Part shown: positions 1,456-63,200 of the stretch, in pieces
How positions within the stretch are numbered: position 1 is the stretch's first letter
Layout: every line of letters starts with the position of its first letter
From: Candidula unifasciata
Taxonomy: Eukaryota; Mollusca; Gastropoda; Stylommatophora; Geomitridae
Assembly (NCBI GenBank): GCA_905116865.2
Contig: CAJHNH020002552.1
Span: 1-64,000 of the forward strand
Direction: 5' to 3'
DNA: 64,000 nt
The notes under the pieces: model-generated
What the model was told of the DNA's origin: nothing
Seen by the model: only the letters and a program-made list of their open reading frames with translations
The model's database searches: none
Position numbers and translations under genes: made by a program

Positions 1456-3010
1456 ATGGCAGGCAGACCATCGGCTCCAAAACTTATAAGCAATAATATT
1501 CTACAAGTTGATCAACTGGCAGCTGTAGATGTCAGACCTGATGATTTATATAGAATAATGGACGATAAACTACAGTGGTTGCAATGGCTCGCTATGCACA
1601 GAATAATACGGAACTCAGTAGACTGTTCGTCTTCCAACCGTCGGATGTCATTAGTGTCAAGGCTAGAATGTTCCGATAGATTCTCTTGGCGATGTCGTCG
1701 CTGTAATACTCGTTGCAGTGTACGGACGGGTTGGTTCTTCGCTAATTGTGAACTCCCAACTGAAAGAATTGTGATGGTAATGTTTTACTGGTTGTTCGAA
1801 GTCAAGCAAAAAAATGTGATGTTTTTTGAGAGATTGACAAGCTGTGATACAGTAGTCAACTATAACAATTATTTTCGGGTAGAGTGTTACAACTGGCTGC
1901 TGCTTAGCAACCCTCAGTTGGGAGGATTTGATGCTAACGGACAGTCAGTGGTTGTTGAAGTTGACGAGAGCTATTTTTTCCACCGCAAGTACCATCGTGG
2001 TTACTTTCGTCGTGGTCAATGGGTAGTTGGGCTAGTTGAACGTGGAAGTGGTCGTTGCTGGTTGGAAGTTGTTAATAGGCGAGATGCGACAACATTGGAA
2101 CGCATCATAAGTGAGCATGTGTTACCAGGAACGACGATTGTCACCGATGCCTGGCGAGGCTACAACAACGTTGGTCAACTCAACAATGGCATATATGAAC
2201 ATCTCGTTGTTGTTCATGCTATTAATTTTGTTGACCGTGTACACGGAGACATCCACACCCAACCACCCGACCACTTCCGGTTAAAATGGACGCTAGACAG
2301 CGGCGCTGTGTCGGAGCGGAGGCAAATTTTTTGCTTCTGCCGGACGGTGGCCGAAGTATTTTTGCTCCATTTGTAGACTGGATATAGTTTCGTCGCCCAG
2401 CTTCTGAGTTGAATGCATGGCGTGACCCTGTGAGCTGCGGATTGCATTTGGAATGTTTTTTCGACTGTGACCAACGTGGTGTGAATTGTAGATTCAGAAA
2501 ATGGCGCGATGCCGGTCGTCAATGTTGGCGGTGCCCGTGTGTGATTACAATTGATCGCGTGGGAAACTGCTGATCTGTTGGCGACAAGTTCTGCTATCAT
2601 CAATGATGAACTGCATTTCTAATGTTGGACTGTTTGTGTTAGCACTTCGGATGGCTACCATATGCTTTAATGCAAGTGTATGCTAGATATGCTGAGACAG
2701 CAGTCTGTCAATCTTTCCACAAGGGACTGTGATAAACATTCTGGGTGTTTTTCGCTGGCACAGGAGCAGAGCAAAGATGGGGCGACCCGTTTGCTATGAA
2801 GCTGAAACTAAGACTACCAGACTACCAGAAATCCACACCCAAACAATTGAAGGGCTGTGGATGCAAGTCAAAAGGAAACAGCGTTTCCAAGGCGGCACTA
2901 GTCGTGCATTGTTTAATACATATTTAGCCGAATTTCAGTGGCGCCACAGTCACAAAGAACATGTTTTTGGACAGTATTTACAGCTGTTGTGCCACAATTT
3001 CGACATATAA
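1456..3010 (+). pseudogene. Merlin-type (IS1016-like) transposase, split by an insertion
   Basis: The reading frame from ATG 1456 runs to about 2262 and resumes in homologous sequence at about 2831-3010. Visible parts are an N-terminal zinc-ribbon-like C-x2-C segment (C-R-R-C-N-T-R-C), V-D-E-S (first catalytic Asp), V-T-D-A-W-R-G-Y (second Asp), T-I-E-G-L-W (Glu) and Y-L-A-E-F-Q-W-R near the end. These are the DDE hallmarks of the Merlin/IS1016 family. A 568-bp repeat sits between the second Asp and the Glu, so no intact enzyme is made. Terminal inverted repeats could not be identified with confidence. Confidence 0.88.
2263..2830 (+). mobile_element. Non-autonomous repeat family E, copy 1, inside Merlin
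   Basis: Flanked by a 12-bp target duplication (atccacacccaa) at 2251-2262 and 2831-2842. Related copies are at 14830-15367 and, inverted, near 32885. It carries no protein I recognise. The variable 10-12 bp duplications fit a retrotransposed element better than a cut-and-paste one. Confidence 0.8.
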
Positions 3011-3484
3011 CTGTCAAATATTATTGGCAGAGTTGCCACTTTTCTTTGACGGAAAGTGTATTGCATTTTGTTTTCTGCATTTTCTTCTTTTCGTCTGTCA
3101 TTTCATTTTCTCAGTGACCGCACTAGCAGGTGGTACACACTTCATTGATACTGAACATCCTCTTGTGTTTAGATAAGTTGTAGCCAAGTATATCTTCTCT
3201 GCTATGTCGTTTCTACTACACATCTTGGTATTTTAAAATCCATCAAAGTAGATATGATATTGTTGCAGGTATAACGCAGCGCTCTCTTTAATATACATCA
3301 AATGCATTAGATATTTAGAGAAACAGGCCGACAGTTTTTATTCCTTCTGAAATCCTGATTTGGCTTCTTGTAATTTAATAATCTGATTGAATATGCTTTG
3401 TGTATTATATATATATATATATATTGTGTGTATCTTATGTATCTTTCTTTTAAAAAATTCCACTGTGTGGAGGGAGAAAAGGAG

Positions 3485-3533
3485 CGGGGGAGGGGGGTTA
3501 GGGGTAGGGTTAGGGTTAGGGGTAGGGTTAGAT
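3485..3533. repeat. Telomere-like TTAGGG tract
   Basis: A short run of TTAGGG and TTAGGGG variants between the two Merlin relics. It directly abuts the Ile and stop codons of the minus-strand Merlin frame. Confidence 0.85.
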
Positions 3534-4389
3534 GTTAAAATTTTGACGTAGGGTTTCGAAATAGTGGCCGACAATCTGATGTTTGTGGGCGTGGCGCCAC
3601 TGAAATTCTGCTAAATATGACGCCAATAGTGTGCGGCTGGTGCCCAATCGTTGGCGAATGGTGCGTTTCACCAGCATCCAGAGGCCCTCAATTGTTTGTG
3701 TGTGTATGTGACTGTGTACGGCGTCGACGAAGTTGGTCTGGTGGACTACTACCTCGTGCAGATAGATGCCATGCCATAAGTTTGCCACGTTGCTGTAGCC
3801 TCGCCAAGCGTCAGTCACGATGGTCGTTCCCGTATCGTATCGTAATCTTTTATGATCCTCTCCAATGTCGCCGCATCTCGTTTTCGCACAAGCTCCAAGT
3901 AGCAACGGCCAGTCTCACGCTCTACTAGCCCGACGAACCAACGACCGTGACGGATGCGACCGCGCTGATACTTTCGTCGGAAGAAGTAGCTCTCGTCTAC
4001 TTCGACCACGATAGATCTGCCGGTCTCATCGAGTCCTCCCAGCTCCACGGTGTGTCTCAACATCCAATTATAGCATTCCTGACGGAAATAATTGATGTAG
4101 TTGACAATGGTGTGCCAGTTCGTGAGTCTCTCGAGGACCATGACAGTCGCTGAACTTAGCCGGAGAGCCAGTAGTACATCATCATGAGTATTTTCTCGGT
4201 CGACATGTCGCTGTTGGCGAAAAACGACCCAGTGCGAACACTACACCTAGTATTACAGCGATAACATCGCCAACCGTATCTGTCGCTACAGTCTTGCCGG
4301 GGACATAGGAACATTGGCCGCGTGCACGAGGTACACGGTTGCGTGTTCCTTATCAGACTATGCTCAGTTAGCCACCGCAACCACGCATA
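3528..4389 (-). pseudogene. Second Merlin-type transposase relic
   Basis: Homologous to the first copy but divergent: C-Y-R-C-N-T-R-C, V-D-E-S-Y-F-F, V-T-D-A-W-R-G-Y, T-I-E-G-L-W and Y-L-A-E-F-Q-W-R are all visible, but in three separate frames (4156-4380, 3815-4141, 3528-3840). At least two frameshifts or stops break it, and the N-terminus lacks an in-frame ATG. It is oriented tail-to-tail with the first copy. It is another copy of the family, not an inverted duplicate. Confidence 0.87.
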
Positions 4390-4599
4390 CTTATGTCATT
4401 ATGGCATACAGGAGTTACGTCCGTGGCAACTAAGTCGTGCGTCGGAATAACGATGTTAGTTATGTGAGTGCGTCTAACTGCCATGTTGCTTCTTGTGTCG
4501 TTTGTTTCGTTGTGGCTTTTCCGATCACTGTTTGGAGTGCGGCCACGGGAGAGAACTCTGACTTAGTCGTCCAAGGCTGTTTATTCTTCGTCCGGATTT

Positions 4600-5639: not shown

Positions 5640-5990
5640 TCAGCAGCAAGCAAAGAGTTTCAATCCGATGGTACCAGTAACTGTCTGATTGTATATCCGT
5701 CTCATCCTTTCCCTGAGTGTTGAGTGTCAGCCATAACCCCTGGTAACTCCTCGCAGTGCCATTCTCCTCGGACCGTAATGATCTGTATGTGCCTCAGCAC
5801 TGTTTACCCGTACGGACAAAAGAAGTTATATTGATCTTGTGTACTTCTCCTGCATTCATCTGAAGATGTAATTGTGCTGTGTCCGTTTAAAGCATGGCTG
5901 TGATATTTGCCCCTTTCTGCCAACACATCCGACTTCTGCAGGCATTTGTTGACAGAGTTAGCCTTCCCCGTTGATCTTGTATGCAGTTTC
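5640..5990 (-). mobile_element. Retrotransposon tail and family H repeat
   Basis: 5640-5800 matches 49225-49390 and, inverted, the RNase H-type tail at 20280-20400. 5800-5990 matches 17640-17785 in inverted orientation. No intact frame. Confidence 0.6.
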
Positions 5991-6149
5991 AGCAACTTTA
6001 TTAAAAGACAAAAATAAAGGACAACTGGATGACAAAAAACAAGATTTATTCTTTGAGTTTGTAATGTGCTGCAGAAATGAATGAATGTAGCAGTGATATT
6101 TATGAAGGAACAATGCTTTGCTTTTTAATAACAGTAACATTTTTCATAA

Positions 6150-6530
6150 CAGTTTGTGAGAAAAAAAGTAGAGAGATAGAGATGGGGGAGTGAAAAAGAG
6201 GAATGGATAGAGACAAATGGAGAAAAGTGAAAGACAGAAGGATAATGAGAGAGACAAAGGAAGTGAGACAGACAGAGGAAAAGTGAAACAACTAGAATGA
6301 CAGAGATGGAAAATGAGAGACACAAAGAGAGAGGGAAAATTAAACAGAGCGGAAAACGAAATAAATAAAAAAGAAATAAGGCAAAGACAGAAAGAGAGCC
6401 ATGGGAAAAGGTAAACCAACAGACAAGACAGAGAGGGAGAGATGAAGACATAAAGATAAACTGAAAGAGAAAAGACTTACAAACACAAAAAAATGTTTTG
6501 ACGATAGTCTGTTTCAATAAACAAAACAAG
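6150..6530. repeat. Purine-rich GA/AGA tract
   Basis: A long GA-biased stretch with irregular gagaga and aaagagag motifs. Open frames on the opposite strand (Leu/Ser/Phe-rich) are compositional. Confidence 0.75.
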
Positions 6531-6624
6531 AATAATTATCCACAAAACTAAACTAGCACAAACACAAATTTTGGCAGCATCATCTCAAGTGCCTTGCCAA
6601 CTGGCATGGGTAATTTTGCAATCT

Positions 6625-7745
6625 TCACAACATGCAATCATCTCCACAACATGGAATCTCCACAATATGCAATCTCCACAACATGGAATTTTCACAATAT
6701 GCAATTTTCACAATATGCAATCTTCACAATATGCAATCTCTACAACATGCAATCTCTACAACATGCAATCTCCACAACATGGAGTCTCCACAACATGCAA
6801 TCTTCACAACATGCAATCTCCACAATATGCAATCTCCACAACATGCAGTCTCCACAATATGCAATCTCCACAATATGCAATCTCCACAATATGCAATCAT
6901 CTCCACAACATGCAATCATCTCCACAACATGCAATCATCTCCACAACATGCAATCTCCACAACATGCAATCATCTCCACAATATGCAATCTTCACAATAT
7001 GCAATCTCCACAATATGCAATCTTCACAATATGCAATCTCCACAACATGCAATCTCCACAACATGCAATCATCTCCACAACATGCAATCATCTTGTGGAG
7101 CATGCAATCATCTGCACAACATGCAATCTCCACATCATGCAATCTCCACAACATGCAATCTCCATAATATGCAATCTCCACAACATGCAATCTTCACAAC
7201 ATGCAGTCTCCACAACATGCAATCTTCACAACATGCAGTCTCCACAACATGCAATTTTCACAATATGCAATCTTCACAACATGCAATCTTCACAATATGC
7301 AGTCTCTACAACATGCAATCTTCACAACATGCAGTCTCCACAATATGCAATCTTCTACAACAAGCAATCTCCACAATATGGAGTCTCCACAATATGGAGT
7401 CTCCACAACATGCAATGTCCACTATATGGAGTCTCCACAACATGCAATCTCCACTATATGGAGTCGTCTCCACAACATGCAATCTCCACAATATGGAGTC
7501 TCCACAACATGCAGTCTCCACAACATGCAGTCTCCACAACATGCAGTCTCCACAACATGCAGTCTCCACAACATGCAGTCTCCACAACATGCAGTCTCCA
7601 CAACATGCAGTCTCCACAACATGCAATCTTCCACAACATGCAATCTTCCACAACATGCAGTCTCCACAACATGCAGTCTCCACTATATGCAATTTCCACA
7701 ACATGCAATCTCCACAATATGCAGTCTCCACAATATGCAATCTCT
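6625..7745. repeat. 16-bp satellite (ATGCAATCTCCACAAC)
   Basis: About 70 units of a 16-bp motif, with variants ATGCAGTC and CAATATGC. Because 16 is not a multiple of 3, every frame cycles through the same 16 codons. Several frames on both strands stay open for hundreds of codons without being genes. Confidence 0.95.
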
Positions 7746-11417: not shown

Positions 11418-11510
11418 CTATTGACTATTCTCAGCAACTGCATCTATCGACGGCCTTCTTTTCTGGTGAGGTTTATCACATCCGTCAGCAGCTTTTCTTT
11501 TCGCCACAGA
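11418..11510 (-). CDS. CHEK2: CHEK2 exon 16 (C-terminal NLS and stop)
   Basis: The last coding exon, 93 bases including TAG at 11418-11420. It begins in phase 0 after ttttcag and encodes K-R-K (448-450), ten residues, then K-R-R-P (461-464), a classic bipartite nuclear localisation signal in the same place as the basic tail of human CHK2. Confidence 0.9.
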   Translation of the reverse strand, partial: SVAKRKAADGCDKPHQKRRPSIDAVAENSQ

Positions 11511-14500
11511 CTGAAAATAGAATGAAAATTCAATCACAACCATAACTTGTTCAAATATATTTTTGTTTAAATCACAGGAGAAAAACATGTTGAAAACTAA
11601 AAACTAACAACTACAGTTGAAATTATAGTCACATCTTGTATTTTTCTTTTTCTGTTTGTTTCGCAATCTGAGCTTTGAGGTCACTGCTGCTTATATCACA
11701 CACTTCCATTCATTTCTGTGACTGGCCTTCTCCAAGTGTCTGTAGGACTGCCTGTATATTATCCTCCACTGTCGTGTTAGTCTAGTCTATCTCATGGTGT
11801 TCTCCCATTGAAAACGTGGAGACAGGCATGCTCTGTGCAGAGTGGCAAGCATCGCTTCAGAGGTCCTGGGTAGTTAGCATCCTCTGGATACTTTCTCCAG
11901 TTGATGCCGGTGTGTTGGGAAACAAGCAGGCAGACAGGCTGGCCAGTTCTGCACATCTTGGGCGTGAACTGATGTATGACAAGCTAGATGTTGTGAGGTC
12001 ATTTTGAGAGCATGTATACAGTGCAGAGATACAAACAGATCATTACGGCTTGCAGGAAGTTACCAGGAGATCTGGCTGACATTCAATATTCAAGGAAAAG
12101 GCGAGACGGATGTACAGTCAGACTGTTACTGGTACCATCAGAACTAGAACTCTTCACTTGCTGCTAAAGATGCTGATGGAGCGCTTATTGGAGTGTCCCA
12201 AGTGCTATGATGTCGACATCCTATTCAACTCTTTTCCTTATGCACTTTTTATCTCCTGATTATCAGCATTCTCTCTTTATTAAATTTACTGGATTCAAAA
12301 ATTATATATCTAAACAACAATCAGTAGTCCCTTTACGGGACACAATTTTTCATTATTTTAAAGCCCCACCCAGGCTGTAGTCAGGGGCCCTATTCATTAT
12401 TTTAAAGCCCCACCCAGGCTGTTGTCAGGGGCCCTATTCATTATTTTAAAGCCCCACCCAGGCTGTAGTCAGGGGCCCTATTCATTATTTTAAAGCCCCA
12501 CCCAGGCTGTAGTCAGGGGCCCTAATATAACCTAACAGTCGAACAGGGTTTCTGGGACCTCTCCCCGGGTGATTCTCATCAGCATGGTGGCTCTTTGTGT
12601 CACCAGGTATCTATCGCTCGGTGGGTATCCTGGTAGGGGTTGAACCTCACTCACTTATAAATATAAATGAAATTCTTGCCATACTTAACACACAGCTACA
12701 ACATTCAAGCCACGACTACGCCAAAAACATTAACGTAACTTACCAGTTTAATAGAGCCCATAGTATCAACTTAACCAGTTTAATAGAGCCCATAGTATCA
12801 ACTTAACCAGTTTAATAGAGCCCATAGTATCAACTTATCAGTTTAATAGAGCCCATAGTATCAACTTACCAGTTTAATAGAGCCCATAGTATCAACTTAT
12901 CAGTTTAATAGAGCCCATAGTATCAACTTAACCAGTTTAATAGAGCCCATAGTATCAACTTATCAGTCTAATAGAGCCCATAGTATCAACTTATCAGTCT
13001 AATAGAGCCCATAGTATCAACTTACCAGTTTAATAGAGCCCATAGTATCAACTTACCAGTTTATTAGAGCCCTTAGTATCAACTTACCAGTTTCATAGAG
13101 CCCTTAGTATCAACTTACCAGTTTATTAGAGCCCTTAGTATCAACTTACCAGTTTCATAGAGCCCATAGTATCAACTTACCAGTTTATTAGAGCCCTTAG
13201 TATCAACTTACCAGTTTCATAGAGCCCTTAGTATCAACTTACCAGTTTATTAGAGCCCTTAGTATCAACTTACCAGTTTCATAGAGCCCATAGTATCAAC
13301 TTACCAGTTTCATAGAGCCCATAGTATCAACTTACCAGTTTCATAGAGCCCATAGTATCAACTTACCAGTTTATTAGAGCCCTTAGTATCAACTTACCAG
13401 TTTTATAGAGCCCTTAGTATCAACTTATCAGTTTATTAGAGCCCTTAGTATCAACTTACCAGTTTAATAGAGCCCATAGTATCAACTTACCAGTTTCATA
13501 GAGCCCATAGTATCAACTTACCAGTTTAATAGAGCCCATAGTATCAACTTACCAGTTTAATAGAGCCCTTAGTATCAACTTACCAGTTTAATAGAGCCCA
13601 TAGTATCAACTTACCAGTTTCATAGAGCCCATAGTATCAACTTACCAGTTTAATAGAGCCCATAGTATCAACTTACCAGTTTAATAGAGCCCTTAGTATC
13701 AACTTACCAGTTTAATAGAGCCCTTAGTATCAACTTACCAGTTTAATAGAGCCCATAGTATCAACTTACCAGTTTAATAGAGCCCATAGTATCAGAATCT
13801 CCATACATTATTGTATTAGCTCTTGTTCTCATTTCATTATCCTGTGAGGCAGGTTAAAAAATTTTTTTTTAGAAAAGAAAAAAAAAAACTGGGTTAGAAA
13901 AAAAACTGGTTAAGAAAACAAAACAACAACTTGCTATTTGAATAGATTATGAAATATGACTTGTCAATTCTCAAAAAAATTTGGAGAAATGTTCTAATTC
14001 TATTTTTTTAAGGCTCAGCAGAAATTATATAAAGTACAAATTTTGTTTTGAGCAAGATACGCCAGAGTCAAAGGGTTGAAAAGCCATCTCCACAATAAAG
14101 GTTGGCTGTGGTATACCCTCTTGACCTGGTTGCACACTCATTGAGGAAAAAGACTGGAACTTCGAATTGAAATGTTCAAGAAAAATTCTAAGAATAGTAT
14201 GGATCAGGAAAAGAAGTTGAACATCAAGGAGAACTGGCTCATAAACAGCATCCTGTCACGAAAGTTGAAGTATTTTGGCCACATCAAGCCTCATGGTGGC
14301 TTGGGAAAGACGGTGATGGAAGGTGCAGTTTGTGGAAGGTGAGGCAGGGGTCGACCACCCGGAAGATGGAAACAAGACATTAAAGATGCATTAGCATTAA
14401 AAGCACATGGGGCCGGAGAGCTGGCTAGGGAAAGGGATACTTTCAGGGGTGCTATGAAGAGAGTGACGTCCTGTAAAGGACCTGCTGACTGATGATGATT

Positions 14501-17500: not shown

Positions 17501-20500
17501 CGGACTAACAGTTAACAGCCTGATGGCAGTAACTGCAAAGGGGCTAGTTTAATCTTATTCTGCAATCTGTGGAACCATTTTCCACAGTGAATAAAAAAAA
17601 TACTACTGTCATCTCACTACAGAATACATGCCATTTTAAACATATAGTGCTGGGAAGGCTAACCCGGTCAACAAATGCCTGCAGAAGTCGGATGTGCTGG
17701 CCGAAAGGTGCAAGTATTGCAGTCATTTGTAAACGGACACAACACAATTACATCTTCGGATGAAAGCAGAAGAAGAAGAAACATATAGTGTATTTCCCTC
17801 TTGATTCATTACAATTATTATACTAAGAATCAGGGCGTATTTACTCAGAATTCTGACCGTATGCAACAAGACACAGTACTGGTGCCTTTTCTGTTTTTTA
17901 AAGGCATCCTTTTTCATCAGTACTGTAATGGATACTTTATGGCATGGACAGGCACCTTTGATTAGATATCTTGTGGTGAGTACCAGCACCAGAAAAAAAA
18001 AAGCCTCAGCTCAGAATTATTGTTTCCATTTGGGTACAATCAGAGCACATTTCAGTGTTTGTAATATATGGTTGTTGTCAATAATGTTTATTACTATCTA
18101 TTAAAAGATTAATGGGAGTCGCCGTGGCAGAGCGGCTAGACGCTCACTGCGGATCGGAAGGTCGTGGGTTCGCTCCCTGGCAGAGCCGGACTTGTTCAAA
18201 AAATTACCTTGACTTCCAGGTCGACCCAGCCTTAAGTGGATACCGGGTGCAGTCTCGGGAAGTAAAGGCAGCCAGCGTGATGCTGATCATATCACCCATC
18301 TTGGGCTGATTGATCTATAAAAATATAGGTCTAGCCCTATATGCCTGAGCTACAAGGTTTGTCAAAATAGAATGAGTCAATTAGTAAAATGCAAAGTAGA
18401 AGTGGTCTCCCTCATGTGGGTTCTGGGGTCCCATAGAGGGGGCAAACAAGAATAGACCCATTGCCTGCCCAATAGCATGTCGTAAGAGACAACTAATTGG
18501 CAGCTTCCTTCAAAGTCAGAATACATCTGCCTGAGAAGCAAGGAACCAACAGACTGCATGCAAATGAGTCAGACCTGTGAAACAGATGTACACGCAACAC
18601 TCAGGTTCTGGAACAGGACTGGAGTCGAGAAGTGGACAAACAACCAGAACTTTCGGCCGGAGTTTACAGCCGGTGAACGCAAAGAAGAAGAAGAATTGGT
18701 CTGCTTGTGAAGAGTGTTGGCAGTTGCTGGGGCTGCATTCTAATGAGAAAGCCAAATCATTTTATCTTGTTTCTCAATGAATAGTTTATGGTTTTGCTCC
18801 CAGTCTGTGTGTCAGTATCATTTCTCACTTTGTCACAGATGGTTAAGTTGTGGGCTTTTCTCTGGTATCTCAGTTGTTATATAAGTGCACTGGCTCACTG
18901 GCATCTTGTTTCAGTGATATTTAGTGGCAATGGTGGAAATTGACGATGATGAAGATGTTATAGCCTGTAGCATAATATAACACTATCGTCTGGAAAGATG
19001 CCGCCGAGTTTGCTACTGCTTTCTAAATGGTTTAGCCCTCATGCCACCACAAAAATCAGTGCAAAGTAGTCTGTTACATCATGTGCAGGTGAGTTGGAAC
19101 CTTGGTATGCTAGAATTTTGAAACAGCGATCAATACACCTAAACCCCTAATGCCGAAAAAACCCTAAACTAAAACTTTAATATCTATTATCTAAGATATT
19201 AAAAAATACCAGTTATAACCCAGAAAGTTTTAACTGTTGATTCCGAACCCAGGTCCGTTGAAATTAATAATCTGTGCTCATAGCCTCTACAGCAGAGTCC
19301 AATGCAAAGCCTATGAGGAGTGGAAAAGCTCAAGAACTCACATGACAAACAAAATGACGCCCAAACTCCAACAGTCTATGGCTTTTGTGTATGAGCCACT
19401 GCCTGCGGTTAACAGGATTTCAGGAGCCAGGTAGGTCGGTGTCCCACAGAAGGTTTTCAGCATTGATCCGGCATCCACAAACTTAGACAGGCCAAAGTCT
19501 GTAACCTGAAGGAGATATTATCATACACCGTAATGGAAGCCCAAAGTCTGTAACCTGAAGGAGATAAATATCATACACCGTAATGGAAGCCGTCTATTCT
19601 CTCTGTCTCTCTGTGTGCACACATGCATGCACGTGCGTGCACATGATTCTTACTCTTCTTCAGCATTCCCTTGAGCCTCTAAGGTTCAGTGCTGCAGTTT
19701 TCCCTGTGTGGCTTCCAGGGCCAAACAAGAACTTTCTGCTGTAGTTTACAGACAATAAACGCAAAGAAGAAGACAGCTGCTGCAGATATCAACCACCTCC
19801 ATTGATCACTGCGACTGGCCTTGTCTCTCCGTTTGGTGACTCCAAGTGTCTGTCTGTCTCTCTGCCGAAATACTATCACATTAATTAAGACTTTTGTTTT
19901 TGTTTTAAAACTTACCTTGACTCCTAGGCTGACCGAACCTTAAAGGACTACCAGGTAATGAAACGCCCTGGGAAGTAAAAGTGACAGATTGTGATGTTGA
20001 CCCATTTACCCATCAGAGCATGTGCTCTTTTATTTATTGGTCAGTACTTCTCATATGGCAGCGTCTGTGGCTTAGGGGTTGCGAGTCCGACTCGTAATTC
20101 CAACGTACGGCGATTACCCACCTAGTGGCCTGCAAAAATATGGGTGCTCTTCCCATATGCCCGATGCACCTACTTTTTTTTGTTTTTACTCCTCACATGA
20201 CCGACATGATCAACTGGCTGGCGCTGCACCACGTGGTGGTAAATTGATGTATGACAAGTTAGATATTATAAGGGCCCTTTGGGAGCGAGTGAACAGTGCG
20301 GAGGCGCAAACAGATTATTATGGTCTGAGGAGAATGGCGCTGCGAGGAGTTACCAGGGGATCTGGCCGACGTCCAACACTCAGGGGAAGGATGAAACGGA
20401 TATACAATCAGACGGTTACTGGTACCATCAGAATTGGAACGCTTCGCTTGCTGCTGAAGATAGGGACAGACGGGTATTTATCTCTTTGCCTTCCTCTTGC

Positions 20501-21394: not shown

Positions 21395-21486
<92 letters not shown>

Positions 21487-33400: not shown

Positions 33401-36400
33401 TGGGGTGGGGGGGGAGGGGGGTGAATAAACGGCCCTCTCAACAAGCATGTGTTTAATGTCAACTAATTAGATGTTTCCTTGAGTGCAACTGTGTGTGTGG
33501 GGGGAGGGGGGGGGGGCTAACAGATTATCAATAAACCAATAAAATGGATTTGCACGCAAAAATCAAGTTCTGCAACAAGACCAAAGTCCAAAGGGGATGA
33601 ACAGCCAGAAGTCTCTGCCGGAGTTTACAGCTGGTGAACACGAAGAAGAAGAGGAGGCATCAATTTCATATCAGGATATTTTTGGGCGGACTTATGGATA
33701 TTTGTAGACAAGCTGGGAAACAAACATCCAATCACCGTGAAAATGTGGTCTCCTATAAAAAAAAAAGAATACCACAGATGAAACAAATGAAGCTCTCTGT
33801 TGACAAACACAAGTCTTAGTCTTAGTCAAGGTTTTAACTTCAATGCAGTCGGGTTTCCCCATACTTGCTCTGTTCCTGTGACAGTGAAAATCAAATAAAA
33901 TGTCCTTAACTGACAAATTTGAAAAACTGATGAACAAACAATTAGTAGCGATACAATCCACAAATATGCGCATGAAGTAAATGCAAATGGCAGTTGCTAG
34001 AGACGTCAAAGCCGTCGGCACCAGAAATGCAGTTTGTTGTTAATAGAAGTAGTCAGGCACAATTAGTTAGCTATACACATGAAAATTTTTACATAAGGTG
34101 TTTCACCAGCTCACATGAATACCGGCTACTGGGCATATTGAATACCACGACACAATCGCTACATAAATTAAAAACATTCCACACGAAAAAACACATCTTA
34201 CAGTGCAGCACCAAGTGCTAAACTCAGTAGCACAGGCAGCGAAACCGTAGACTATGGTCTATATGTGGAAACTGCTTTAGCAAAGTGCTGTCGAAAGCAA
34301 AAATAACTTCTAAGCTTAATATTCTGCCATGTCTAATAGGAAAACAATAAACTGATTGATTAGAGAAGCAGATACGGAAAGTGAAAGTTGTTTCAGAAGG
34401 TTATGACAGAAAAAAATTTTAAAAACATTTTAACAACCTGAAAACTCAAGGAGAATATTCCAAGAACACTTTATTGATAGCTTGGCCACCTGACATTATC
34501 AGGACAAGAACAAAAACCCGATTTGAGACTGGGCAGAAAAGGCTGCTGGTGTTAACTATGTTATATTACCGCTTTCGACATCACTGCACATTCGTGAGCA
34601 TGGTCAGTCCTCTGATCCAACAGCCACTTCAAGGTGCCTCTAATATTTCCCATTAGAATCTTGTTATAATGCCTCCTTTTCTGACCTCAAAGACAACATA
34701 GACATGCTTTACCGAGCTTTACTACAAGGAACCCCGTGTGGATTCTGAGGTCTCATTGAGGGGAAAACAAGAACGGACCCACTGCCTCCATAACAAGCAT
34801 GTCGTATGACTTGGCTAACTGGGTGTTTCCTTCGAAGTCGGAGTGCATCTGCCTGAGAGGCAAGGAACCAACAGTCTGAATATACAAAAGTCAAATCTGT
34901 CAAATGGATGAGCACGCAACACTTAGGTTCTGGAACAAGTCTTAAGTCCAGAGGTGGGTGAAAAAAACCAGAACTTTCCACCGGATTTCACAGCCGGTGA
35001 ATACGAAAAAGAAATATAAGGAGAAGAATTGTTAGCTAAAAGGCTGCTTTTTGGCACTTTTCTGTCTTTGCCGACCGCAGTGTTCTGCTGCACTGGTATA
35101 AGATTCGCAGTCCATGATGATACCAGTTAGCAAAGCCTGGTCAGTATTGTAGAGATGAAAGGTTAAAGTCAAGAGGACTGACTTCATTGGACCGGGTTTT
35201 AACCCATATGGCTCAATTTCCCTCTGCAGACCAGCTAGCTTCCGAGACAGAACGCAAAGCACAAACTCCTAGCTCTGGCAACGATCCCCAGAGATCTCCG
35301 TAAAAATTGCACTCTTGAACTGAACGACGCAGCTGTGATGCGAGCCCACAACCTTCACAGCGGGGGGCAAACAGCGTGACCATTTTGCCATGCAGTAAGA
35401 TTCCTTACTTAGCCTGCTTTGATAACTCTAATGGAAAGATAACACTAATATGTTTAGAACAAAGTAGTGCTCTGTGTCCAAACAGCAGAACATCTGGGAG
35501 AAAGGTGAGAGGAAGACCAAGAAATAGACAGATAAATGGTGTAGCAGAAACCTGCAAAAGGATGAACAAATCCATCAACCAAACCACCCGAGAAGTGCAA
35601 GATAAATACAGAAATCCAAAGAGCAGAACAAGTGGGAGTAAGGGGAGAGGAAGACCAAGAAAGAGATGGATAAATGGTGTAGCAGAAACCTGCAAAAAGA
35701 TTAACAAATCCATCACCGGAGAAGTGCAAAACAAATACAGAAATCTGTGACCCATTGGCTACAACCTGGTATCGGTGAGATGACAAAAGAAGAAGAAAAA
35801 AAGTGCTCTGTGTCCAAACACCACAGCTCTCCTCCTAGACCAAGGGTACCATAGAGGCAATGACCAGCACAGAATACAAAGCAAACTGTGGAGCTCATAA
35901 AAAAAGCTAAAATATCCTAACACTTCCTCTTCTCCAGTTCTGTTTTGCCAGAGTCAGATTTAGAAGTGGCATCAGGTGGAAGCCTTAGTATATGCTACGT
36001 AGATGCTGGTATTTAGGCCTTGGATATTCCATCTATCCATTTTTTGCATGATCTACCTCTAGTTCTGCCTCCCTTATCTCTAAAAGACAGGGCTCTCTGC
36101 GGTGCACTATCTGATGGCAGTCTTGACACATATCTGAACCATCTGTCTGCTGTGTCTTGATGTAGTTTGGTACTGATTTCATCCTAACTTCTTTCCTGAT
36201 ATCATAATTTCAGATCCTCTCTCTTCCAGTCACATTTAGACAGTTACAGGCATTTTATTTCTGTTGTTTTGATTGTTTTATTTTATTTTAACATTGAGAA
36301 AGAAATTAAAATAAACAAACATGCAGTGTGAGTACCTACCAACTTTCTGCCCATTAACAAAGGTGCCATTACTGCTGGTATCTTCCAAAAATATATGAAT

Positions 36401-40644: not shown

Positions 40645-40790
40645 GAGGAGTGGCTGGCCGAACGGTTAGAACGCTGGGCCCTCAAGTGGGAGCCCCGAGT
40701 TCGAATTCTCGGTAAAGCTGGGGATTTTTTCTGTCGGGGACAAAATAAAATCCTCACCTGCACAGTTAGAGCATTAGTGATGCGGCAGTA
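40645..40790 (+). mobile_element. SINE with Leu-tRNA-like head (family J)
   Basis: gtggctggccgaacggttag then gagccccgagttcgaattct gives clear A and B boxes. The tail runs to ttagagcattagtgatgcgg. It abuts the duplicated CHEK2 segment. It is not a functional tRNA gene: no folded acceptor stem or 3' end is seen. Confidence 0.78.
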
Positions 40791-41243
40791 ATTCTGCCTC
40801 CCTTATATCTAAAAGACAGGGCTCTCTGTGGTGCACTATCTGATGGCAGTCTTGACACAAATCTGAACCATCTGTCTGCTGTGTCTTGATGTAGTTTGGT
40901 ACTGATTCCATCCTAACTTCTTTCCTGATATCATAATTTCAGATCCTCTCTCTTCCAGTCACATTTAGACAGTTACAGGCATTTCATTTCTGTTGTTTTG
41001 ATTGTTTTCTTTTATCTTAACATTGAGAAAGAAATTGAAATAAACAAACATGCAGTGTGAGTACCTACCAACTTTCTGCCCATTAACAAAGGTGCCATTA
41101 CTGCTGGTATCTTCCAAAAATATATGAATGCCTGTTCGTGTATCTGCCTGTTAATGAAACAAATAACTAATTCCAAACAATTTATACAAAAGAAACGGCC
41201 AAGCAATTTATAAAAGACATAACATAACATACCCCTTGACCCT
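40791..41243 (-). repeat. Segmental duplicate of the CHEK2 exon 3 region
   Basis: About 450 bp matching 36063-36508 in the same orientation, with about 15 substitutions by eye, none of them in the exon. The copied block also includes part of a non-LTR retrotransposon tail, so duplication followed that insertion. Confidence 0.9.
41069..41147 (-). pseudogene. Orphan duplicate of CHEK2 exon 3, upstream of exon 1
   Basis: All 79 bases equal exon 3 at 36340-36418. The donor gtaggt is kept and the acceptor is cag instead of tag. It lies 2.96 kb 5' of the CHEK2 ATG on the same strand, so the main transcript as I resolve it would not include it. It could be a relic, an alternative upstream exon, or an assembly artefact. 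Confidence 0.85.
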
Positions 41244-53796: not shown

Positions 53797-54460
53797 TAAG
53801 TACTTTGCTGGATTCTTTACCTACTTTGCTGCGTCTTTTACCTAATTTTCTGGTTCCTTGACCTACTTTGCTGGGTACTTGACCTACTTTGCTGGGTACT
53901 TGACCTACTTTGCTGGGTACTTGGCCTACTTTGCTGGGTACTTGACCTACTTTGCTGGGTACTTGACCTACTTTGCTGGGTACTTGACCTACTTTGCTGG
54001 GTACTTGACCTACTTTGCTGGGTACTTGACCTACTTTGCTGGGTACTTGACCTACTTTGCTGGGTACTTGACCTACTTTGCTGGGTACTTGACCTACTTT
54101 GCTGGGTACTTGACCTACTTTGCTGGGTACTTGACCTACTTTGCTGGGTACTTGACCTACTTTGCTGGGTACTTGACCTACTTTGCTGGATTCTTTACCT
54201 ACTTTGCTGCGTCTTTTACCTAATTTTCTGGTTCCTTGACCTACTTTGCTGGGTACTTGACCTACTTTGCTGGGTACTTGACCTACTTTCCTGGGTACTT
54301 GACCTACTTTGCTGGGTACTTGACCTGCTTTGCTGGGTACTTGACCTACTTTGCTGGGTACTTGACCTACTTTGATGGGTTCTTGACCTACTTTGATGGG
54401 TCCTTGACCTACTTTTCTGGGGCCTCGACCTACTTTTCTGGGGCCTCGACCTACTTTGCT
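53797..54460 (+). repeat. 21-bp satellite (CTACTTTGCTGGGTACTTGAC)
   Basis: About 30 units of 21 bp. A block of variant units (ggattctttacctactttgc...) appears at both 53807-53870 and 54186-54240, so a large block was itself duplicated. Because 21 is a multiple of 3, the frame reads T-Y-F-A-G-Y-L over and over. The reverse strand is also open in part (S-R-S-S-T-Q-Q). Confidence 0.95.
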
Positions 54461-61529: not shown

Positions 61530-61940
61530 TCCCTACTTAAATGTTATCAGTGCCAGACATGAAAAATAAATAGGGCACTAGAACAGAAAATAACTACCTG
61601 TGAAATGCGCTGTCTCCACAAGGTCACTAACAACACAAGAAGAGACAGGGTTACGAATGCTAGCAACAAAGAGAAAGTTGGAAGAAAACTATGTCTGGAT
61701 CATACTGACAAAGATTGAAATGGTTCGACCATCTAGTGATAATGCAGCCAGACCAAACTGCATTTGAGACTTTTTACAACAGAACATCTGGGAGGAAGGC
61801 GAGCGGAAGACCAAGAAAGAGATGGATAAAAGGTGTAGATGAAACGTGCAAAATGATGGACAAATTAATCACCCAAACCACCAGAGAAGCGCAAGACAAA
61901 TACAGAAAACTACGACGCTGGGCTGCAACCTTGTATCAGT
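61530..61940 (+). mobile_element. Non-LTR RT C-terminal tail
   Basis: Fragments with C-E-M-R-C-L, then M-K-W-F-D-H-L-V-I-M-Q-P and [16 protein letters not shown]. It runs straight into the satellite. Confidence 0.82.
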
Positions 61941-63200
61941 GAGACGACAAAACCACGACACTGGGCTACAACCTGGTATCAGTGAGACTACAAAACCACG
62001 ACACTGGGCTACAACCTGGTATCAATGAGACGACAAAACCACGACACTGGGCTACAACCTGGTATCAGTGAGACGACAAAACCACGACACTAGGCTACAA
62101 CCTGGTATCAGTGAGACGACAAAACCACGACACTGGGCTACAACCTGGTATCAATGAGACTACAAAACCACGACACTGGGCTACAACCTTGTGTCAATGA
62201 GGCTACAAAACCACGACACTGGGCTACAACCTGGTATCAATGAGACGACAAAACCACGACACTGGGCTACAACCTGGTATCAGTGAGACGACAAAATTAC
62301 GACACTAGGCTAGAACCTGGTATCAGTGAGACCACAAAACCACAACACTGGGCTACAACCTGGTATCAGTGAGACCACAAAACCACGACACTGGGCTACA
62401 ACCTGGTATCAATGAGACTACAAAACTACAACACTGGGCTACAACCTGGTATCAGTGAGACCACAAAACCACGACACTGGGCTACAACCTGGTATCAATG
62501 AGACGACAAAACCACGACACTGGGCTACAACCTGGTATCAATGAGACGACAAAACCACGACACTGGGCTACAACCTGGTATCAATGAGACGACAAAACCA
62601 TGACACTGGGCTACAACCTGGTATCAATGAGACGACAAAACCACGACACTGGGCTACAACCTGGTATCAATGAGACTACAAAACTACAACACTGGGCTAC
62701 AACCTGGTATCAGTGAGACCACACAACCACGACACTGGGCTACAACCTGGTATCAATGAGACGACAAAACCACGACACTGGGCTACAACCTGGTATCAGT
62801 GAGACGACAAAACCACGACACTGGGCTACAACCTGGTATCAGTGAGACGACAAAACCACGACACTGGGCTACAACCTGGTATCAATGAGACTACAAAACC
62901 GCGACACTGGGCTACAACCTTGTGTCAATGAGACTACAAAACCACGACACTGGGCTACAACCTGGTATCAGTGAGACGACAAAATTACGACACTAGGCTA
63001 CAACCTGGTATCAGTGAGACCACAAAACCACAACACTGGGCTACAACCTGGTATCAGTGAGACCACAAAACCACGACACCGGGCTACAACCTGGTATCAA
63101 TGAGACGACAAAACCACGACACTGGGCTACAACCTGGTATCAATGAGACGACAAAACCACAACACTGGGCTACAACCTGGTATCAGTGAGACCACAAAAG
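61905..63200 (+). repeat. 43-bp satellite derived from a retrotransposon 3' end
   Basis: About 30 units of ccacgacactgggctacaac with ctggtatcaatgagacgaca. The unit equals the 3' end of the retrotransposon tail that precedes it; compare the single copy at 35750-35785. Confidence 0.95.

Follow-up and report, generated by a model that had tools for sequence, protein, structure and literature searches.

The window analysed here, a stretch of 64,000 nucleotides covering positions 1 to 64,000 of contig CAJHNH020002552.1 from the land snail Candidula unifasciata, carries on its minus strand a complete CHEK2 gene of 16 exons. It encodes 474 amino acids without an internal stop, running from the methionine codon at 38112 to the glutamine codon at 11421; the stop codon occupies 11420-11418. 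The gene was identified by a search with a human CHEK2 query, and CHK2 provided the best matches of one of its reading frames in a library of solved structures. In its product an FHA domain precedes a kinase domain of Chk2 type, the motifs of both align with gastropod Chk2, and the kinase lysine and the HRDLKPEN, DFG and APE motifs are all intact. The assignment of gene and exon made in an initial annotation, which had been drawn from the DNA letters, is supported.

Exon junctions were placed by reading frame and splice signals. In the order of transcription on the minus strand, the exons are exon 1 (38112-37989), exon 2 (37174-37053), exon 3 (36418-36340), exon 4 (32274-32209), exon 5 (30207-30120), exon 6 (28642-28534), exon 7 (28048-27995), exon 8 (26125-26061), exon 9 (25218-25119), exon 10 (23916-23878), exon 11 (21249-21202), exon 12 (19505-19342), exon 13 (17005-16890), exon 14 (15912-15827), exon 15 (13841-13770) and the coding part of exon 16 (11510-11421, with the stop to 11418). 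Exon 15, which is 72 nt long, lies between introns of 1,985 nt and 2,259 nt, the latter being intron 15 (11511..13769). Exon 16 encodes SVAKRKAADGCDKPHQKRRPSIDAVAENSQ, with a bipartite-looking basic stretch that is likely to be a nuclear localisation signal (NLS); the initial annotation had also placed such a signal in the last exon, and it is treated as putative here. The donor of exon 2 is weak, and the acceptor of exon 12, together with 14 exonic nt, is present in two copies of about 49 bp (19492..19591, minus strand). At 37989, exon 1 apparently uses a GC donor (GTTG|GCAAGT). In addition, a 300-bp stretch (36060-36359) that extends into the FHA-encoding exon 3 recurs with 97% identity at 40789-41088, 4.7 kb away, and the extra copy of exon 3 sits upstream of exon 1.

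The junction between exon 15 and intron 15 has grown into a tandem array of 34 units, which occupies 12737..13793 on the minus strand (Tandem Repeats Finder, TRF: 12737-13794, period 31, 34.0 copies, 95% matches, score 1851). The initial annotation had counted the same 34 copies, and its array is real; its limits of 12742..13841 are not, since 13841 is the start of exon 15. Each unit combines the final 24 nt of exon 15 with the seven intronic nucleotides GTAAGTT, or a variant of these, and measures 31 bp in 31 of the 34 units and 32 bp in the other three. Unit 1, from 13793 down, contains the exonic end itself, and its GTAAGT donor (13764..13769, minus strand) is the one chosen by the public gene model. 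Unit 34 (12737..12767, minus strand) is joined to unique intron sequence. GTAAGT is intact in 26/34 units, that is, in 25 of the 33 extra copies, in exact agreement with the earlier count, while five units (12, 26, 27, 29 and 31) read ATAAGT and three (28, 32 and 33) read GTTAAG.

Ten unit types could be distinguished, in the order AABBACABACADEFCCCFGFCFGFAHHIJAJIIA. At a lag of four units, 12 of 30 pairs are identical, which would be a sign of block duplication within the array. Units 1 and 34 both belong to type A, the commonest type, which fits one ancestral unit having been pulled apart. The earlier proposal that the array arose by repeated tandem duplication or unequal exchange is supported. 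The 2-3 bases of junction microhomology that had accompanied this idea came down to one on measurement: the left flank shares a single base (T) with the unit end and the right flank shares none. Broken donors are gathered towards the distal end, with seven of the eight units in the block of units 26-33 (12768..13018, minus strand) affected. Counted as 7/9 in units 26-34 against 1/24 in units 2-25, the difference is significant by Fisher's test (P = 6e-5), a value to be read with the caveat that units are not independent and that 2/34 rotations of the array give as many broken donors at the end. This cluster could reflect selection against intron-proximal decoys, in which case the decoys would matter.

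The array is present on one contig only, in one assembled haplotype. DNA searches of the genome (7,176 contigs, 1.34 Gb) with the array and exon 15, which pass over very common words, reported 8 and 32 matches, all of them at this locus, and a dispersed satellite was rejected because every reported match falls within this array and exon. For comparison, the published C. unifasciata draft comprises 1.29 Gb in 8,586 scaffolds (PMC8496239). The array was also considered as coding sequence and rejected, as stops occur in all three frames.

As to which donor is used, a public C. unifasciata protein (P0001, partial and unnamed), encoded on the window's own contig, matches the window CHEK2 identically over its 343 residues. 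It reads ...DTMGSIKL|SVAKRK... across the junction and ends in ...DTMGSIKLSVAKRKAADGCDKPHQKRRPSIDAVAENSQ, which joins unit 1 to exon 16. This protein, the sole splicing evidence found, is an automatic and partial gene model, and gene finders favour the conserved protein. The annotation of this species drew on introns from mapped RNA-seq reads, on transcript assemblies and on homology (PMC8496239), so RNA support for the junction in P0001 is possible.

The intact donors offer little by which the first could be told from the rest. All 26 intact units share the same predicted U1 duplex energy, -9.1 kcal/mol, and the predicted local accessibility of unit 1 (0.0046) lies inside the range of all units (0.0022-0.0157). 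RNA structure masking the decoys was accordingly rejected, predicted accessibility being alike across units. With 26 donors alike in hexamer and in predicted U1 pairing, position is the main remaining discriminator. Previous work on human cells showed that, of identical donor pairs under exon definition, the upstream one was exclusively used in five minigenes, and that of near-equal donors between long introns the upstream one was favoured (PMC9225289). However, the same source gives the downstream donor a win in about 60% of human alternative-donor events, where strength was not equalised, and cites classical in vitro work in which the downstream donor was favoured (PMC9225289). Exon 15, with 72 nt between introns of about 2 kb, fits the long-intron setting, and a transfer of the rule from human to snail would be needed; the rule was obtained with two-donor constructs in human cells, and 26 equal donors exceed the tested range. 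By analogy with these constructs, the splicing machinery is likely to ignore the decoys and to use the first donor.

If the unit 1 donor is left unused, translation continues into V-S and an in-frame TGA (13761..13763, minus strand), just as the initial annotation had read it. Translation of four decoy-spliced versions and of the retained intron gave 446 residues ending in GSIKLVS in every case; as the stop lies within the first intronic bases, all remaining decoys must give the identical product. This stop is no trap created by the array, because the second CHEK2 of this genome, which has a single-copy donor, reads V-S-N-stop at the same place. With unit 2 the stop would lie 22 nt upstream of the last junction, and with units 3-34 the gap would widen to 53-1017 nt. 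A stop more than 50-55 nt upstream of a junction usually triggers mRNA decay, so that units 3 or 4 onward would lead to decay if snails obey this rule. For decoys 3-34, mRNA decay is more likely than a stable protein devoid of the NLS. Between the two outcomes formerly proposed, choice of the exon-proximal donor or a truncated Chk2, the first agrees with the P0001 gene model, and the second would mostly end as decayed mRNA. The C-terminal 64 residues of P0001, used as a protein query, returned only P0001 itself among two candidates, with neither a decoy isoform nor an ortholog, in a database clustered at 90% identity, where an isoform could be hidden.

We therefore consider, with a probability of roughly 0.72, that the array is a so-called mirage in CHEK2, grown by repeated tandem duplication and harmless since exon definition picks the exon-nearest donor. 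The donor of exon 15 would likely have been tandem-duplicated again and again to yield a minisatellite that spans the junction. From the sequence it follows that a duplication spanning a donor would leave the full exon and its donor first and place all further copies in the intron. Exon definition, which prefers the upstream of equal donors in published work on human cells, would presumably do so in the snail as well. With exon-proximal choice the array would be nearly neutral and could expand freely, and its block homogenisation and the decay of donors at its distal end may have followed from this. Tolerance might be increased by the carrier being the faster-evolving CHEK2 paralog, and an occasional splice from a downstream unit would yield V-S-stop and, in most cases, mRNA decay.

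The second Candidula Chk2 (P0005), which is encoded on contig C6150, provides a comparison within the same genome. In a tree of 21 proteins, the window CHEK2 adjoins the pair formed by Bradybaena and P0005, a placement with 90/85 support on a branch that carries no star, and its own end branch measures 0.39 versus about 0.15. At columns invariant in 18 other Chk2 proteins, the window copy is changed in 16/188 and P0005 in 1/189, and on this protein comparison the window CHEK2 is the faster-evolving of the two paralogs. As Bradybaena belongs to another superfamily, the CHEK2 duplication looks older than the split of both lineages; a genome duplication has been proposed for stylommatophorans (PMC12407731).

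Exon 15 of P0005 is equal to that of the window gene in length (72 nt) and frame, and it ends in a single-copy donor (CTG|GTCAGTAA) with no tandem repeat at that donor. An array is found at the opposite end of the same intron instead, where the acceptor of exon 16 with six exonic nt is repeated in 11 units of 65 bp (C6150 50258-50981, corresponding to 5759-6482 of stretch L026). In its ten decoys TTCCTACACACAG runs on into TCTGTG, and CCTGTG comes after the real junction. Intron 15 thus has a donor array in the window CHEK2 and an acceptor array in P0005. Moreover, 7/15 acceptors of P0005, that of exon 16 included, lie within 25 nt of an array (none of 20,000 random placements reached seven; mean 1.65), while its donors show no excess (2/15, P = 0.49). 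At exon 8 of P0005 the array includes near-copies of the acceptor; of nine matches to the motif, seven read CTG in place of CAG, and CAG persists in two, the real site among them. In the window CHEK2, acceptors near arrays are at chance level (1/15, P = 0.22), and 2/15 donors are near arrays (P = 0.02).

Arrays at exon edges were also sought in other kinase genes. We surveyed 23 stretches round non-Chk2 kinase matches (91 matches in total, Chk2 ones included), which had been picked as exon-sized matches before arrays were examined. Within them lie 33 exon matches, and 52 arrays, counted after merging, cover 20.7% of the sequence. Of the 66 exon edges, 11 were crossed by an array or had one no more than 40 nt away, where 4.9 would be expected (P = 0.006); the edges are alignment edges rather than exact junctions, and the sample is small. 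At cut-offs of 10, 20 and 60 nt the P values were 0.026, 0.069 and 0.014, respectively. Ten of the 11 edges were read, the array upstream of the second exon of stretch L030 being left out. At three of these ten (both sides of an exon in L030, and L050) a splice signal lies inside the repeated unit, whereas six others had none inside the unit in the stretch viewed. The remaining one, L037, was dropped as a donor array because the GTAAG there is a stop codon of the reading frame, and it is still included in the count of 11/66.

The donor array in L030 (1730-3616) has a 25-bp unit and follows an exon that is PKA-like, with 57 CAGGTGAG donors, the real one included. On the other side of this exon, an acceptor-side array (1292-1514) has about four copies of a 58-bp unit, three of them with the CAG of the presumed acceptor. 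The donor array of L050 (1970-2709, 62 bp x 11) repeats the end of a CaMK-like exon, namely the HRDLK codons and the donor, and four of its copies, the real one included, have CTCAAGGTGGG. Both kinase names are putative and were read from translations. The CHEK2 array is therefore likely one of a class in the Candidula genome, and not the largest. A much wider reading, for which we see about an even chance and which draws on the two CHEK2 genes and the small set of kinase stretches, is that splice junctions are birthplaces of minisatellites in land snails. Thousands of exon ends would then have become arrays with as many as dozens of intact donors or acceptors, tolerated via exon definition, with the CHEK2 pair one case among many, and such arrays would feed intron growth, give rise to new introns and let leaky isoforms appear.

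The name mirage was given to tandemly copied exon-intron boundaries in the lancelet gene Adh3, and further examples were described in the globin genes BflGb6 and BflGb9 and in TnC and PGBD5; both 5' and 3' boundaries are affected, many copies carry AG/GT, and regular splicing is reported to be undisturbed (PMC3087553; PMC3902484). Like the lancelet mirages, the snail repeats span the boundary (24 exonic and 7 intronic nt), and many but not all of the units carry the splice signal (26/34). Mirages are further marked by copy numbers that differ between haplotypes and by an interior made uniform while the boundary units are left out; the snail array does show a block pattern inside, but its units 1 and 34 are both of the commonest type. 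Unlike BflGb6, which has 3-6 copies of 150-160 bp (PMC3087553), the snail CHEK2 has 34 copies of 31 bp. Further differences are the mollusc host, the involvement of both ends of one intron across two paralogs, and the 57 donors reached in another snail gene. The array also resembles intron gain by tandem genomic duplication, a model discussed for lancelet globins (PMC3087553), in that a tandem copy spans a splice signal; the snail copies, however, lie in an existing intron and have made no new intron or exon. No mollusc mirage was found in the literature searched, which was limited to openly licensed papers, and a paper on gastropod intron sequences speaks, in its available part, of microsatellites only (PMC3862624). 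The CHEK2 array joins a known kind, in a phylum without an earlier case in that literature.

A human case comes close in another respect. Turri et al. in 1995 reportedly described a minisatellite with multiple splice donor sites in human IFI6 (6-16). There, two downstream repeat units serve as donors and give rise to three mRNAs (PMC4526556). As in IFI6, the snail minisatellite sits at an exon end and its units are splice donors, but the gene model of the snail takes unit 1, unlike the human gene, in which downstream units are used. By this analogy, a leaky use of downstream units in the snail is possible.

Such use could be more than leakage, if decoys were chosen at a regulated or stochastic rate and the array acted as a dial, turning nuclear Chk2 down by way of V-S-stop isoforms, by loss of the NLS with unit 2 or the retained intron and by mRNA decay with units 3-34. 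The convergence of all translated versions on one 446-residue product, the stop distances on either side of the decay rule, the human precedent (PMC4526556) and the fact that in the paralog this last exon is put at risk by an array of another sort would suit this idea. It is nevertheless unlikely, since among seven distinct variants two fall in the donor hexamer and 1.4 were predicted from its length, giving no sign that decoys are kept, and since the V-S-stop is not specific to the array, with its near-equivalent in P0005. We regard as still less likely, and indeed as quite improbable, that the window copy is a decaying paralog which tolerates splicing damage, with the array marking the start of pseudogenisation. 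Its long end branch, the 16 changes at 188 invariant columns, the duplicated exon 12 acceptor, the GC donor needed by exon 1, the weak donor of exon 2 and the existence of a second CHEK2 copy are what decay would lead one to expect. Against this, the frame is kept open through all 16 exons with its catalytic motifs, and the slow, strongly constrained P0005 has an 11-copy acceptor array of its own, so that loss of constraint is not required.

Consensus lengths of tandem arrays can drift in assemblies, and the genome is a wtdbg2 draft from about 25.6X PacBio reads (PMC8496239), which would leave room for an assembly artefact or a badly wrong copy number. This is very improbable given ten unit types in an ordered and partly block-duplicated pattern, and given a read N50 of 9.9 kb with Illumina polishing against an array of 1.06 kb (PMC8496239); the exact copy number of 34 is uncertain. 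It is scarcely credible, finally, that the array is a U1 landing platform shielding a long intron from premature polyadenylation. ATTAAA or AATAAA is present in 22 of the 33 extra units, many of which thereby pair a donor with a hexamer, but these hexamers simply came along when the exon end was duplicated. The titration of U1 by this pre-mRNA, raised in the initial annotation, is likewise implausible for one locus in view of the abundance of U1 snRNA.

The locus is a natural experiment in splice choice, with 26 equal donors in CHEK2 and 57 near-equal ones in another gene versus two in published constructs. Constant use of the first copy would mean that exon definition withstands dozens of perfect decoys. 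The arrays extend mirages, reported in lancelets, to molluscs, and splice junctions as seeds of minisatellites would have a bearing on intron growth and gain. Such arrays could also yield wrong annotation or a hidden truncated checkpoint kinase.

Elsewhere in the window, large minisatellites are located at 61906-63199 (43 bp x 30), 53801-54460 (21 bp x 31) and 6617-7744 (16 bp x 69), and a run of 90 G at 21397-21486 is possibly an oddity of assembly or polishing. At about 2217-4400 there are broken reading frames with an apparent likeness to an ISXO2/IS1595-type transposase.
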